A stretch of DNA of 32,242 nucleotides, from positions 1 to 32,242 of the IMG/VR virus record IMGVR_UViG_3300042309_001149; one strand, given 5' to 3'. Numbering within the stretch: position 1 is the first letter of the stretch; every line of letters begins with the position of its first letter. Below, piece after piece: positions 21,560 to 29,766 of this stretch. The position numbers and the translations under genes are program-made. The stretch comes from a virus. The notes under the pieces are model-generated. The model searched no databases and was not told where the DNA came from. It was given only the letters and a program-made list of their open reading frames with translations.

Positions 21560-22315
21560 ATGGCCCGTCCAGATATTTCTTTTGAAAGCACCGAGCAGCA
21601 GTTGGAATACAGCCTGAAGGTGCTCACACAAGCAGGCTTCACTCCATTGCAAATTGAACGCATTCGCAATGAAGTGGGTGTTGGTAAAAACAAGATTCCT
21701 TACGACAAGGAAAGCACCGGCTGGCGACGCTTCATGGTGCAAGAACTTCTTGCTGCTCGCATGAGCAATAGGCAAATTTCTGAAGTGCTCAATCTGTCCA
21801 AGGAAACGGTTAATGCTGATAGGAAGCATAATCGTGACATTTGGACACAAGAAATTCTCAAGAGTCAAGACACCTGGCGGGCGCAATTACTTCGCGAACA
21901 GGCAGAGCTTAAAGAGATGGCAGTGCAAGGCTTTCATGCCAGTAAGAAAAAGCGCATTACTACCACCAATGATCGCACTAATGAAACCACCACGAGAACT
22001 GAGGAAACGGCTGGAGAAAGTAGCTTTTTGACAGTCGCAAAAGGCTGCCTTGAGCAGCAAGCTAAAATCCTTGGTCTGTTTGACATTAAACCTCAGCAAG
22101 AAGAGAAGAGCGGCTACAAGAACTTTTTGGATAGTCTCTCGTCTCAAATTGCCAAGATCAAGGAGGCAGAACAAACAGCTACAGACCGTGCTGTGGCCAT
22201 TGAAGCCAAGGCAGAATTTGATGAAAATGGCGAACCCACTGGTCAAAGCAGGCCAATGCTTTCAGCATACGTTGAAAACGACGAGGACGATGAAAGCGAA
22301 GATGATGAAGAGTAA
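21560..22315 (+). CDS. HTH DNA-binding protein, probable small terminase subunit
   Basis: The 251-residue product has an N-terminal helical region, a helix-turn-helix (FMVQELLAARMSNRQISEVL followed by NLSKETVNADRKHNRDIW, about residues 56-95), a long charged helix (LLREQAELKEMAVQGF..), a variable Thr-rich segment, then FLTVAKGCLEQQAKILGLFD, and a strongly acidic C-terminus (ENDEDDESEDDEE). An HTH followed by a central oligomerisation helix and the x-x-L-x-x-x-E-x-x-A-K-[IL]-L-G-L motif is typical of small terminase subunits and related phage HTH proteins. The large subunit is not in the window, so the packaging role remains inferred; a regulator is the alternative. Confidence 0.55.
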   Translation: MARPDISFESTEQQLEYSLKVLTQAGFTPLQIERIRNEVGVGKNKIPYDKESTGWRRFMVQELLAARMSNRQISEVLNLSKETVNADRKHNRDIWTQEILKSQDTWRAQLLREQAELKEMAVQGFHASKKKRITTTNDRTNETTTRTEETAGESSFLTVAKGCLEQQAKILGLFDIKPQQEEKSGYKNFLDSLSSQIAKIKEAEQTATDRAVAIEAKAEFDENGEPTGQSRPMLSAYVENDEDDESEDDEE

Positions 22316-26628: not shown

Positions 26629-26680
26629 TTGACCGGGGCTCCGTCCATGGGCATTATGGCTTCAACGAGGCGCGAGCCTC
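26629..26680 (+). promoter_or_regulatory. Promoter and 5'-terminal GCGA hairpin, copy 1
   Basis: TTGACC (26629-26634), exactly 17 bp, CATTAT (26652-26657), nine bases, then GAGGC-GCGA-GCCTC (26667-26680). Start of transcription is expected 2-3 bases before the stem. Sixteen pyrimidine-rich bases separate the hairpin from the ATG at 26697. Confidence 0.75.
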
Positions 26681-26696
26681 TCATTCCTTCCTTCCC

Positions 26697-27002
26697 ATGA
26701 CCACCTACCTCATCGGCTACGCAACCAAAACCCCCATCGTGCGCGGCTTCCTTCGCCACGCTGGCAGCAGCATCGTCAGCGTGGAATTTGTCAAGGCTGA
26801 CGGCAGCCTCCGCAAGATCCAATTCAATCCTTGCGACCGCCAGGAAATCAAAGGCACTGGCAAGCCCTCTACCAATACTTCCATCGTTCGCTGCCGCGAC
26901 TTTGCAGTGGCCCGCAAGGATGGGCAGGGCGCTTGGCGCTCCTTTGACTGCGAGCGTGTGGTGAGCATCACTGCCAAAGGCGAGACGCTGGTGCTGGCCT
27001 GA
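26697..27002 (+). CDS. Hypothetical protein, 101 residues, hairpin-led gene 1
   Basis: The start ATG 26697 follows the hairpin leader at the same spacing as in the four related genes. The product starts MTTYLIGYATKTPIVRGFLR, contains strand-rich segments (SIVSVEFVKADGSLRKIQFN) and ends WRSFDCERVVSITAKGETLV. The ending W-R-S-F-x-x-E/D-R-V-x-S-I is seen in small WYL-like or Sm-like barrels, but I cannot assign a family. The codons are more GC-rich than in the upstream small genes, suggesting good expression. Confidence 0.65.
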   Translation: MTTYLIGYATKTPIVRGFLRHAGSSIVSVEFVKADGSLRKIQFNPCDRQEIKGTGKPSTNTSIVRCRDFAVARKDGQGAWRSFDCERVVSITAKGETLVLA

Positions 27003-27024
27003 TCGTTTGTAAACAATTGTGACG

Positions 27025-27079
27025 GGGGCCAATCCAGGCCCCTCTCTCCTGTATTGTTCTCTCACGAGGCGCGAGCCTC
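27025..27079 (+). promoter_or_regulatory. Terminator-like stem, -10 and GCGA hairpin, copy 2
   Basis: GGGGCC/GGCCCC (27025-27042, six-base loop) forms a stem after the previous gene. TATTGT (27052-27057) lies eight bases before GAGGC-GCGA-GCCTC (27066-27079). No -35 hexamer is visible at 17 bp. Eighteen pyrimidine-rich bases precede the ATG at 27098. Confidence 0.65.
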
Positions 27080-27097
27080 TCCCTTCCTTTCCCTCCC

Positions 27098-27358
27098 ATG
27101 GCAACCATTCCCACTGTCCACCTCAACGGCACCGGCTTCACCGATCTGCGCGATGGCTACGCTGCTGCGTACGATGCCATCGACAAGGCCATTGACGCCC
27201 TGGCGAAAGCCGAGCTCAATGGGAGGGATTTCTATCCGCAGGGCCCTGATGCCTACTATCACGCTCGCAAGGAGCGCGATCAGGCCTTTTACCGCCTGCA
27301 TGCTGTTCACGACTACGTGGGCGAGATGCTGGCTGGCATTTGTGATCAGCAGCGCTGA
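27098..27358 (+). CDS. IPTVHLNGT-type phage protein, hairpin-led gene 2
   Basis: The 86-residue product begins MATIPTVHLNGTGFTDLRDG, then YAAAYDAIDKAIDALAKAEL, NGRDFYPQGPDAYYHARKER and a final helix. The pair I-P-T-V-H-L-N-G-T and N-G-R-D-[YF]-Y-P-Q-G defines, as I recall, a small family found in many phages of diverse bacteria, all helical and of unknown role. It is a complete, full-length member. It carries its own promoter/hairpin leader and is followed by a hairpin containing the promoter of the DUF932 gene. Confidence 0.8.
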   Translation: MATIPTVHLNGTGFTDLRDGYAAAYDAIDKAIDALAKAELNGRDFYPQGPDAYYHARKERDQAFYRLHAVHDYVGEMLAGICDQQR

Positions 27359-27385
27359 AGCGCCAAAGCGTGAAGTTTTGTAACG

Positions 27386-27418
27386 GGGCTTGACCTCAGG
27401 CCCCAAATGAACTAACTT
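27386..27418 (+). promoter_or_regulatory. Promoter of the DUF932 gene embedded in a hairpin
   Basis: TTGACC (27390-27395), 17 bp, TAACTT (27413-27418). The -35 lies inside a stem GGGGCTTG/CAGGCCCC (27386-27405, loop ACCT, one G-U) that could end the previous transcript. The leader to the ATG at 27451 is pyrimidine-rich but lacks the GCGA hairpin of its neighbours. Confidence 0.65.
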
Positions 27419-27450
27419 TTCTTTCGTCAGTCAACTTTCCTCTCAAAGCC

Positions 27451-28452
27451 ATGAGCCACCAATTCACCTCCGGCGTGTTCTTCAATAACGAGCCCGCCTG
27501 GCACAAGCTTGGCACCGTCCTCGACGGCACCCAGCCCGCCCGTGAAGCTTTCGCCACTGCCAATGCCTCCTGGGAAACCATCAGCACTCCCGTGTTTGAT
27601 CCCACTGGTGAGCCCATCCCTGGCTACCAGGCCATCACTCGCGGCGACACTGGCAACGTGCTCTCCATCCAAAGCGAAAGCTATGCCATCGTTCAAAACG
27701 AACAGCTCATTCGCGTGGCAGAAGCCCTGCATGAAGATGCAACGATGGATGCCGTAGTAGTGCTCAACGAAGGGCGCAAGGTGGCATTCACCGCCAAGGT
27801 GAACAATTCCGAAGCTGATGTGCTCCCTGGTGACACCATCCACCAGTACCTTGTTGGTTGCACTTCTCACGATGGCACTATTGCTTTCCAGGTGATGTTC
27901 AGCCCCATTCGTGTAGTGTGTCAGAACACGCTTTCCTATGCTCTGGGCCGTGCTGCTGCTGGTGCATCCACCAAGAAGATGCGCATTCGCCATACCAAGA
28001 ACGCCAACGCTCTCATTGATCACCTCCCCTCGATCATTGATATGCAGCGCCAGCAGTTCACTGCGGGCATTGATGAACTGAAAGCAATGGCCGCCAAGCC
28101 CTGCACTTCCGCTCTGTTCCGTCAGTATTGCGAAAGCGTGTTTGCCGATCAACTGGTGGGCATGACCAATGACAAGCGGGGCGACAAAAGCACTGCCCGC
28201 TCCAAGAAGCTGGAAGACCTCACTGCCTGGGACAGTGTGGCCAACAAATTCCATGGGGAAGGCATTGGCTTTGATATTCCCGGTGTGCAGGGCACCATGT
28301 GGGGCGCCTATCAAGCCATCACGGAGTATTTCTCGCACGATGCAGGCCGTGCCGTGGATTCCATTGATGCTGCCCGCCAGCGTCTAGAGAGCCTCTACTG
28401 GGGCACTGGTGCTGCCACCATCGCCAAGGCCCACTCCCTGGCTCTGGTCTGA
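27451..28452 (+). CDS. DUF932 (phage/plasmid-like) protein
   Basis: The 333-residue product starts MSHQFTSGVFFNNEPAWHKL and shows the DUF932 series: G-T-V-L-D at the start, an N-x-E-L-[LI] block (VQNEQLIRVAEAL), KVAFTAKV, HQYLVGCTSHDGTIAFQVMF, IRVVCQNTLSYALG and a helical C-terminal half with WDSVANKFHGEGIG and TMWGAYQAITEYFSHDAGR. Members are widespread in phages and plasmids, where they are sometimes annotated as associated with replication or DNA modification; none has a settled function. It is the longest gene of the hairpin-led block and appears strongly expressed by codon choice. It is full-length compared with the family's usual 300-350 residues. Confidence 0.88.
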   Translation: MSHQFTSGVFFNNEPAWHKLGTVLDGTQPAREAFATANASWETISTPVFDPTGEPIPGYQAITRGDTGNVLSIQSESYAIVQNEQLIRVAEALHEDATMDAVVVLNEGRKVAFTAKVNNSEADVLPGDTIHQYLVGCTSHDGTIAFQVMFSPIRVVCQNTLSYALGRAAAGASTKKMRIRHTKNANALIDHLPSIIDMQRQQFTAGIDELKAMAAKPCTSALFRQYCESVFADQLVGMTNDKRGDKSTARSKKLEDLTAWDSVANKFHGEGIGFDIPGVQGTMWGAYQAITEYFSHDAGRAVDSIDAARQRLESLYWGTGAATIAKAHSLALV

Positions 28453-28484
28453 GCATTGCAATGGAGGGAAATGGGGCTGGGGGC

Positions 28485-28536
28485 TTGCGCTCCTGGCCCT
28501 TTTCGCTTACTGTTCTTTCAACGAGGCGCGAGCCTC
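28485..28536 (+). promoter_or_regulatory. Promoter and 5'-terminal GCGA hairpin, copy 3
   Basis: TTGCGC (28485-28490), 17 bp, TACTGT (28508-28513), nine bases, GAGGC-GCGA-GCCTC (28523-28536). Fifteen bases, mostly pyrimidine, precede the ATG at 28552. A GGCCCTTTT run in the spacer is also terminator-like. Confidence 0.72.
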
Positions 28537-28551
28537 ACCGCCTTTCACTCC

Positions 28552-28749
28552 ATGGACATCTCCGTCAACTACACCTCTCCCTGGGACAAGCGCTACTGGG
28601 CCAAAGACTACGCCGATGAGGCCCTGCGTATCCTCGTCTCCTCTGGTCGCTGGCCCGCAGGCTCTCTGGTGGTTGAGCACACCGACCCTGCCAGCCCCAC
28701 CCATTGGCGCGTGGTGTCCGTCACGGGCATTCAGCAGCCGGGCTGGTGA
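28552..28749 (+). CDS. 65-residue protein, hairpin-led gene 3
   Basis: The product MDISVNYTSPWDKRYWAKDY continues ADEALRILVSSGRWPAGSLV and ends HWRVVSVTGIQQPGW. It has a helix flanked by strands and five Trp, suggesting a compact folded domain. The family is not recognised. The frame is open upstream to 28456, but those codons cover the promoter and hairpin, so the later ATG is the start. Confidence 0.6.
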   Translation: MDISVNYTSPWDKRYWAKDYADEALRILVSSGRWPAGSLVVEHTDPASPTHWRVVSVTGIQQPGW

Positions 28750-28764
28750 ATTTGGCCCAATGGC

Positions 28765-28817
28765 TTGACGCCTGTCCCGTTTGAGCTTATTGTTTTTTTC
28801 AACGGGCCGCGAGGCCC
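28765..28817 (+). promoter_or_regulatory. Promoter and covarying GCGA hairpin, copy 4
   Basis: TTGACG (28765-28770), 17 bp, TATTGT (28788-28793), ten bases, then GGGCC-GCGA-GGCCC (28804-28817). The stem bases differ from the other copies at several paired positions, but pairing and the GCGA loop are kept. Fifteen bases precede the ATG at 28833. Confidence 0.78.
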
Positions 28818-28832
28818 TCCTCACTTCCAGCC

Positions 28833-29213
28833 ATGACCCGCATCAACCACACCGTTGAACAACTCACCACTGCTGATGCCTACACCGTCTTCAGCGGCCT
28901 CAACACCATCCGCATGACCGTCACAGTGCCCGATTGGCACGAGCCTTTCCCTAGTCAGAAGCGCATGGGTGCTGCCAATCCCCGCACGTTGGAAATGACC
29001 GGCCTGCTGCACGTAAGCCGCACTTGGTATCTCAATGGCCCTGTGATGGATCAGTGGACCATCTCCACGCTCAACGGCCCCGTGCATGTGCCTGCTGGCA
29101 CTCGCATTGAGACAGAGGAGCTTCCCGAAGTGTGGGAGGCCAATTCCAAGCCCAGCAGCCCTGGCAAGAAGGAGTGGTACGCCTATACCAATGGCCGCAC
29201 TGCCTTCTGTTAA
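28833..29213 (+). CDS. 126-residue hypothetical protein, hairpin-led gene 4
   Basis: The product starts MTRINHTVEQLTTADAYTVF, contains MTVTVPDWHEPFPSQKRMGA, LHVSRTWYLNGPVMDQWTIS and a final basic/aromatic segment (KKEWYAYTNGRTAFC). It appears to be a beta-rich single domain. I do not recognise the family. Codon choice is GC-rich, as in the other hairpin-led genes. A strong hairpin (29224-29246) follows the stop. Confidence 0.62.
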   Translation: MTRINHTVEQLTTADAYTVFSGLNTIRMTVTVPDWHEPFPSQKRMGAANPRTLEMTGLLHVSRTWYLNGPVMDQWTISTLNGPVHVPAGTRIETEELPEVWEANSKPSSPGKKEWYAYTNGRTAFC

Positions 29214-29223
29214 GCATTGTTAC

Positions 29224-29280
29224 AGGCCCCTTTCCAGGGGCCTTTTCGTTCTATTGTCTGTTCAACGAGGCGCGAGCCTC
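29224..29280 (+). promoter_or_regulatory. Terminator, -10 and GCGA hairpin, copy 5
   Basis: AGGCCCC/GGGGCCT (29224-29243) with TTTTC makes a terminator for the previous gene. TATTGT (29252-29257) and, nine bases on, GAGGC-GCGA-GCCTC (29267-29280) follow. No -35 is visible because the terminator occupies that place. Sixteen pyrimidine-rich bases precede the ATG at 29297. Confidence 0.68.
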
Positions 29281-29296
29281 TCTCTTCCTTCTTCCC

Positions 29297-29533
29297 ATGA
29301 CCTCCTCCTTCATCCAAGACCAGCTCATTTCCATGGTCGCCCGCTTCATCTGCGAAGCCAAGGCTGGTGACATGCTCATGCTTCCTGCCATGGCAGCCCT
29401 CCACAAGCGTGAAGATGGCCGCATCTGCATGAGCCGCCAAGGAAGCCTGCCCACCCCTCTGTGGGAGCCCCTGAGCCACGATATTGTTGCCACCATTGTT
29501 CGGTGGAGCAAAGAAGACCTCCAGGCCGCCTGA
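29297..29533 (+). CDS. 78-residue hypothetical protein, hairpin-led gene 5
   Basis: The start follows the leader hairpin at standard spacing; upstream in-frame codons cover the leader itself. The product MTSSFIQDQLISMVARFICE continues AKAGDMLMLPAMAALHKRED, GRICMSRQGSLPTPLWEPLS and a helical end (HDIVATIVRWSKEDLQAA). Helical, Met-rich, no known motif. Confidence 0.6.
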   Translation: MTSSFIQDQLISMVARFICEAKAGDMLMLPAMAALHKREDGRICMSRQGSLPTPLWEPLSHDIVATIVRWSKEDLQAA

Positions 29534-29537
29534 GCGG

Positions 29538-29569
29538 CCTCCGCACCCTCCGAACCCTCCGCAGCCTCC
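29538..29569 (+). repeat. Nine-base CCTCCGNAN tandem repeat in a leader
   Basis: CCTCCGCAC, CCTCCGAAC and CCTCCGCAG follow one another and end in a fourth CCTCC. The run lies between the stop at 29533 and the ATG at 29578 and is wholly pyrimidine-biased on the sense strand. Confidence 0.8.
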
Positions 29570-29577
29570 CTAGAACC

Positions 29578-29766
29578 ATGCAAGACACCATCAACATCCT
29601 GGCCATCAGCAACAAAGGCCGTAGCCGCATTGGCACCACCATCACCACTGCCATTGTTGAGCAGAATTTCCACGACAAGCTTTTCATTGTCCTTCCGCAG
29701 TTCAATCAATGCCGATGGATTAAAAGGAACAATGATCCCGACTTTCGCATTATCCCTGAGGATTGA
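29578..29766 (+). CDS. 62-residue hypothetical protein
   Basis: Start ATG 29578 comes 8 bp after the CCTCC repeat; in-frame codons upstream lie in that leader. The product MQDTINILAISNKGRSRIGT continues TITTAIVEQNFHDKLFIVLP and ends WIKRNNDPDFRIIPED. It looks like a small alpha/beta domain with a Lys/Arg-rich loop. The family is unknown. It lacks a hairpin leader and may be read from the copy-5 promoter. Confidence 0.58.
   Translation: MQDTINILAISNKGRSRIGTTITTAIVEQNFHDKLFIVLPQFNQCRWIKRNNDPDFRIIPED

Follow-up and report, generated by a model that had tools for sequence, protein, structure and literature searches.

A promoter-linked stem-loop with a restricted tetraloop ahead of unrelated small genes in cyanophages related to S-CBS4

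Why should five small genes of one phage, each from a different protein family, all begin behind nearly the same 14-nucleotide (nt) hairpin? The question is raised by a 32,242-base IMG/VR fragment (the window, by which we mean this whole stretch), a piece of a phage whose sequence relates it to Synechococcus phage S-CBS4, its nearest isolate in the phage collection. A sequence-only reading of the window had reported five hairpins with a GCGA loop ahead of non-homologous genes, and all five were re-found on the plus strand with the positions, stems and spacings it gave (Table 1): the -10 hexamer precedes the stem by 9, 8, 9, 10 and 9 nt in hairpins 1-5, and the stem ends 16, 18, 15, 15 and 16 nt before the ATG. 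The combination of hairpin, ATG-initiated open reading frame (ORF) and -10 hexamer, observed five times, was never obtained in 300 first-order Markov simulations of the window; the exact 14-mer occurs in four plus-strand copies, and allowing up to three mismatches gives 11 matches where 2.8 are expected. Our preferred answer, to which we assign a probability of about 0.5, is that the hairpin serves mainly as a portable 5'-terminal RNA tag that would shield short phage messenger RNAs (mRNAs) from 5'-end-dependent decay.

Pairing and loop letters across related phages

The recurring module consists of a -10 box, 8-9 nt, a stem of 5 base pairs (bp) closed by a GNRA loop, a pyrimidine leader of 14-20 nt without a Shine-Dalgarno (SD) motif, and an ATG. 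Searching IMG/VR for an exact 16-base match gave 48 loci, of which about half have an upstream promoter-like hexamer and a downstream ATG; these loci and S-CBS4 were scanned by geometry, which uncovered many other stems in the same position, and further relatives were gathered by promoter-plus-loop and protein searches. (Two promoter-only scans with short patterns were swamped by chance matches.) Among 134 modules the -10 box mostly ends 8-9 nt before the stem and the ATG mostly lies 14-20 nt after it, with AC or AT immediately before the stem in 85 and a 5-bp stem in 105. The covariance model R1 matches 14/14 phage records (S-CBS4 and 13 related), mostly 3-9 times per record and largely within one block of a few kilobases, L319 having two weak matches only. 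Five copies are present in the isolate S-CBS4, which infects Synechococcus CB0101. The module precedes 20 or more unrelated protein families, which bears out the view that it is portable: structure rather than sequence is kept, on unrelated small genes. In a covariance search of relatives, as the sequence-only reading had proposed, orthologues of genes 1, 2, 4, 5 and 6 that have their own promoter mostly retain both stem and loop; the loss of conserved structure that would have spoken against that reading was not seen.

The module was not found in Synechococcus phage S-H1, nor in the stretches fetched from S-CRES1, S-CRES2 and B23. R1, applied with stricter filters, gave no match in 101 genomes of the host (Cyanobium) family, and an exact-pattern search of genome contigs also gave none; a host-derived leader was rejected on the contrast between this null and the 14/14 related phage records matched.

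The stem varies freely in sequence while its pairing is retained. We count about 35 distinct stems, and compensatory as well as G-U changes are seen both between orthologues and within genomes; pair 2, for example, is seen as G-C, G-U and A-U. Six members of one 96-amino-acid (aa) family have six different stems and the loop GCGA in all, orthologues of hairpin 4 carry GGGCC/GGTCC, GGGCC-GAGA-GGCTC, GAGCG/CGCTC or GAGGC/GCTTC, and the relative L016 combines GAGGC, GTTGG, GAGCG and TGAGACGG stems in one genome. When only the -10 box, the loop and the ATG were used to select sites, without regard to pairing, all five inner pairs formed at 62/87 sites with GCGA and 24/56 with GAGA, compared with 1/54 GAAA sites and 0-1 sites with any given control loop. 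A 28-row hairpin alignment gave a covariation score of 0.967, against 0.27 for shuffled and no more than 0.25 for slid controls, a value to be weighed below the pairing-independent orthologue comparison since its rows had been pre-chosen as paired. Stem length is also narrow, being exactly 5 bp in 68/80 modules. Because the changes are compensatory and include G-U pairs, and because several stems coexist in one genome, we conclude from these comparisons that selection acts on an RNA stem-loop and not on a DNA operator.

The loop is more restricted than the GNRA fold, which by itself would tolerate U or G as the second base and A as the third. The loops used are GCGA or GAGA and rarely GCAA. 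On small protein trees, where the counts are minima and modules share ancestry, position 2 changed 13 times, always between C and A, position 3 changed once and positions 1 and 4 never did, whereas each stem position on the same trees changed 8-21 times. At the related loci, hairpins with GCGA, GAGA or GCAA loops lay 12-25 nt before an ATG-initiated ORF in 136/181 cases, as against 10/84 for other GNRA loops and 4/40 for UNCG loops. Promoter-only scans of IMG/VR in which the loop was varied gave paired stems at 10/14 distinct sites for GCGA and 3/5 for GAGA, compared with 0/2 for GTGA and 0/8 for GAAA. A constraint that exceeds both the GNRA fold and simple stability favors a reader of the loop, and the loop is thus probably recognized by a factor, host or phage.

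Linkage to promoters and the leader

In 66/80 modules with TATTGT or TATAGT as the -10 hexamer the stem starts 8-9 nt after it, so that transcription is predicted to begin 2-3 nt before the stem, leaving an overhang of that length. Presence of the hairpin follows presence of the promoter. Of the gene 2 orthologues sixteen lack both, no promoterless one has a hairpin, and nearly all those with a promoter have it, some with four pairs or a mismatch; over 12 families the linkage reaches a Fisher p = 3e-9. The comparison establishes that the hairpin accompanies promoters and not particular genes, and that the targets of selection are stem pairing, the identity of the loop bases (G, then C or A, then G, then A) and a promoter-adjacent position rather than any given gene. 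The linkage to promoters, together with the position near the predicted start, leads us to favor a function at the 5' end.

The five genes had been read as sharing one promoter followed by a leader of fixed length, and each half of that description needs qualification. A -35-like hexamer stands 17 nt from the -10 box of genes 1 (TTGACC), 4 (TTGCGC) and 5 (TTGACG), but at genes 2 and 6 the expected -35 place is occupied by the terminator-like hairpin of the preceding gene; terminator-like hairpins precede 59/80 promoters. The leader, 15-18 nt in the window, ranges over 14-20 nt across the relatives. Its pyrimidine fraction is 0.74, compared with 0.49-0.53 in other S-CBS4 genes, SD-like motifs occur in 4/80 leaders compared with about one third of other S-CBS4 genes, and folding predicts that it stays unpaired.

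A proposed protective 5' tag and its alternatives

The proposed cassette would run from a sigma-70-like promoter through 2-3 unpaired nt (given the predicted start), a 5-bp stem with a GCGA or GAGA loop and a pyrimidine leader to the start codon. With the hairpin covering the 5' terminus of numerous short, monocistronic phage mRNAs, 5'-end-dependent decay (by RNase E, RNase J or a preceding removal of the 5' phosphate) would start poorly, the single-stranded leader would recruit ribosomes without an SD motif, and a loop-bound factor from host or phage would help to protect these messages or single them out. A single-stranded 5' end is required by both RNase E and RppH, which is why secondary structure there stabilizes mRNA; in E. 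coli as in B. subtilis such structure slows decay (PMC3997798). Cyanobacteria possess RNase E and RNase J (PMC10989914), and in infected Prochlorococcus RNase E is raised while phage RNAs are shielded by antisense RNA (PMC9692554). That protection from RNase E, in P-SSP7, resembles our proposal in that a cyanophage spares its own mRNA during host RNA degradation, but it relies on RNA-RNA duplexes over the transcripts instead of a 5' hairpin and belongs to a different phage group.

The closest parallels are the 5' stem-loops of the ompA and papA mRNAs in E. coli (cited in PMC3997798), which lie at or very near the 5' end, as is predicted for the cyanophage hairpin, and are followed by a single-stranded ribosome-binding region. 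The cyanophage hairpin differs in being only 14 nt long, in serving many unrelated genes of one virus, in its SD-less leaders and in its conserved loop. For a 5' stabilizer one expects that structure matters and stem sequence does not, and the ~35 stems with compensatory changes agree with this. By analogy, then, the element would act like an ompA-type stabilizer that deviates in its loop constraint. Structured cyanophage and marine RNAs have been described (manA, wcaG and PhotoRC-II; Weinberg et al. 2010, PMC2864571), some of those in cyanophages lying in 5' untranslated regions (UTRs); the window, by contrast, has no match in Rfam at the gathering score, permissive matches being at chance level, and membership of a known RNA family was rejected on this basis. 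A full-text literature search with partial coverage found no such leader described for cyanophages, and this 5'-UTR element is apparently undescribed so far.

Several observations weigh against protection as the main function. A pure stabilizer should tolerate any stable loop, so that loop sequence ought to be unimportant, and yet UUCG, GUGA, GGAA and GAAA are practically absent. Certain orthologues form only 3-4 pairs or contain a mismatch. The DUF932 gene within the same array has its own promoter and nevertheless no hairpin in this phage (its orthologues in L008, L038 and L048 do carry one). No close homologue of RppH, as known from E. coli and B. subtilis, is present in cyanobacteria (PMC10989914). 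Most relatives are metagenomic fragments with shared ancestry, so the counts given above are not independent, and both the 5' start and a longer half-life are predictions from sequence.

The strongest alternative, possible but clearly behind the protective tag, is that the hairpin is a binding site for a trans-acting RNA-binding protein of phage or host that co-regulates these genes through translation or timing, with stability secondary. The restriction of the loop to G-C/A-G-A while stem positions vary freely fits such a site, as do the near-constant stem length and the sharing of one hairpin by many genes of a block. The reader is so far a hypothetical factor, however, and the hairpin tracks promoters rather than genes, for which a gene-specific translational operator would have no need. 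Among the common cassette proteins gene 1 is the most basic, and it is present in S-CRES1, S-CRES2 and B23 as well, the phages in whose searched stretches the module was not found; we rejected it as the loop reader on these grounds and keep it as a possibility only. Its family (~100 aa, isoelectric point about 10, 38 loci) gave a sub-threshold WYL_2 match in 18/18 orthologues tested, and the protein is possibly a nucleic-acid binder.

We rate slightly lower again a combination of the two ideas, in which the tag would be a protein-read viral substitute for a cap: a factor on the G-C/A-G-A loop, at the very 5' end, would both shield the mRNA from degradation by the host and promote its SD-less translation.

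A phage-encoded RNase E was also considered as a candidate. S-CBS4 gp086 (NC_016766 61648-62379) is labeled RNase E and also phrog_645; it and its homologue in the window (21560-22315) are about 250 aa long. The window protein gave weak helix-turn-helix matches and no RNase E domain was found in it. We dropped the candidate, and the RNase E label of gp086 looks wrong from these domain matches.

Lambdoid boxB, the hairpin of the nut site, has a 5-bp stem and a GNRA-class loop near an early promoter, and our hairpin is alike in size, loop class and location. A promoter-proximal antitermination site of this kind would let polymerase read through the terminators between cassettes, and the frequency of terminator-like hairpins ahead of the promoters suits it. 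We nevertheless think it unlikely. With a start predicted 2-3 nt upstream of the stem there is no room for a boxA, each gene retains its own promoter and hairpin, the loop is a tetraloop rather than a pentaloop, and stems vary widely inside one genome, as in L016, where a lambdoid phage would have a single boxB stem matched to its N protein.

Equally improbable in our estimation is a translation-initiation element, in which the hairpin keeps the pyrimidine leader open for ribosomal protein S1. The SD-less, pyrimidine-rich and predictedly unpaired leaders are consistent with it, as is a gene 1 homologue in S-CRES2 that has the same TGTATAGTT -10 box, no hairpin and AAAGGAGG instead. Promoterless gene 2 orthologues often have pyrimidine leaders without the hairpin, however, which makes the leader independent of it, and the loop letters should be irrelevant to such a role. 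Finally, a palindromic DNA operator bound by a repressor just past the start site, which would account for an inverted repeat at a promoter, is highly improbable and was rejected on the within-genome diversity of stems, where one shared palindrome per genome is expected, and on the G-U pairs, which break a DNA palindrome, the conserved loop being asymmetric besides; such an operator would require a single protein able to bind palindromes unrelated to one another.

The array, related open reading frames and implications

The array is set out in Table 1.

Table 1. Coordinates of promoters, hairpins, leaders and genes in the window, with the evidence for each
Feature	Position	Strand	Evidence or remark
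Promoter of gene 1	26629..26657	+	TTGACC 26629-26634, 17 nt, CATTAT 26652-26657; covariance match 26652-26699
Hairpin 1, GAGGC-GCGA-GCCTC	26667..26680	+	Minimum free energy -9.3 kcal/mol, leader unpaired; predicted start 2-3 nt upstream
Leader of gene 1, 16 nt, pyrimidine-rich, no SD motif	26681..26696	+	Sequence, folding
Gene 1, 101 aa, basic	26697..27002	+	Weak match to WYL_2 (Sm-like SH3 barrel), all 18 orthologues
Terminator-like G+C-rich inverted repeat GGGGGCC...GGCCCC	27022..27044	+	Directly upstream of promoter 2; pattern common in relatives
-10 hexamer TATTGT of gene 2	27052..27057	+	Sequence; covariance model 58.5 bits
Hairpin 2, GAGGC-GCGA-GCCTC	27066..27079	+	Sequence, folding
Leader of gene 2, 18 nt, pyrimidine	27080..27097	+	Sequence
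Gene 2, 86 aa, no assigned function	27098..27358	+	Orthologues without promoter also without hairpin
DUF932 gene inside array	27451..28452	+	Promoter of its own (TTGACC-17-TAACTT); hairpin absent in this phage
Promoter of gene 4	28485..28513	+	TTGCGC, 17 nt, TACTGT 28508-28513
Hairpin 3, GAGGC-GCGA-GCCTC	28523..28536	+	Sequence, folding
Gene 4, 65 aa, no assigned function	28552..28749	+	
Promoter of gene 5	28765..28793	+	TTGACG, 17 nt, TATTGT 28788-28793
Hairpin 4, GGGCC-GCGA-GGCCC, covariant stem, loop unchanged	28804..28817	+	Sequence, folding
Gene 5, 126 aa, no assigned function	28833..29213	+	
Terminator-like hairpin AGGCCCCT...AGGGGCCT and T run, ahead of promoter 6	29224..29243	+	
-10 hexamer TATTGT of gene 6	29252..29257	+	Covariance match
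Hairpin 5, GAGGC-GCGA-GCCTC	29267..29280	+	Sequence, folding
Gene 6, 78 aa, no assigned function	29297..29533	+	

Genes without promoter and hairpin often have CCTCCGNA(C) repeats before the ATG, as at 29533-29578 of the window and in L311, L019, L293 and L301; these repeat leaders are pyrimidine-rich and resemble the anti-Shine-Dalgarno core CCUCC. A sub-class of hairpins with 7-8 bp stems (GAGGCGA, TGAGACGG) and the same loop class is found at L007 4881, L016 4534 and 5387, and L314 6782, ahead of small, partly hydrophobic or basic proteins. A 120-aa cassette family (L005:21710-22072, L040:8092-8454 and relatives) contains CxxCxGxG motifs like those of the DnaJ zinc finger, with S-CBS4 as its sole match in the phage collection. 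In S-CBS4, modules at 67137 and 67590 (L005 22138 and 22591) stand before unannotated plus-strand ORFs of 125 and 128 aa; the gene annotated there on the minus strand, gp100 (67152-67631), was probably called on the wrong strand.

The module flags genes that annotation has missed. As a 5'-UTR element it is compact and widespread in viruses that infect abundant picocyanobacteria, its covariation is unusually clean for 14 nt, and it is directly testable with S-CBS4 on Synechococcus CB0101, an isolate that carries it. As a potential genetic part it may offer stable SD-less expression in cyanobacteria, and, if the tag does act as a substitute for a cap, any gene that gained the promoter-hairpin-leader unit would join the regulon.

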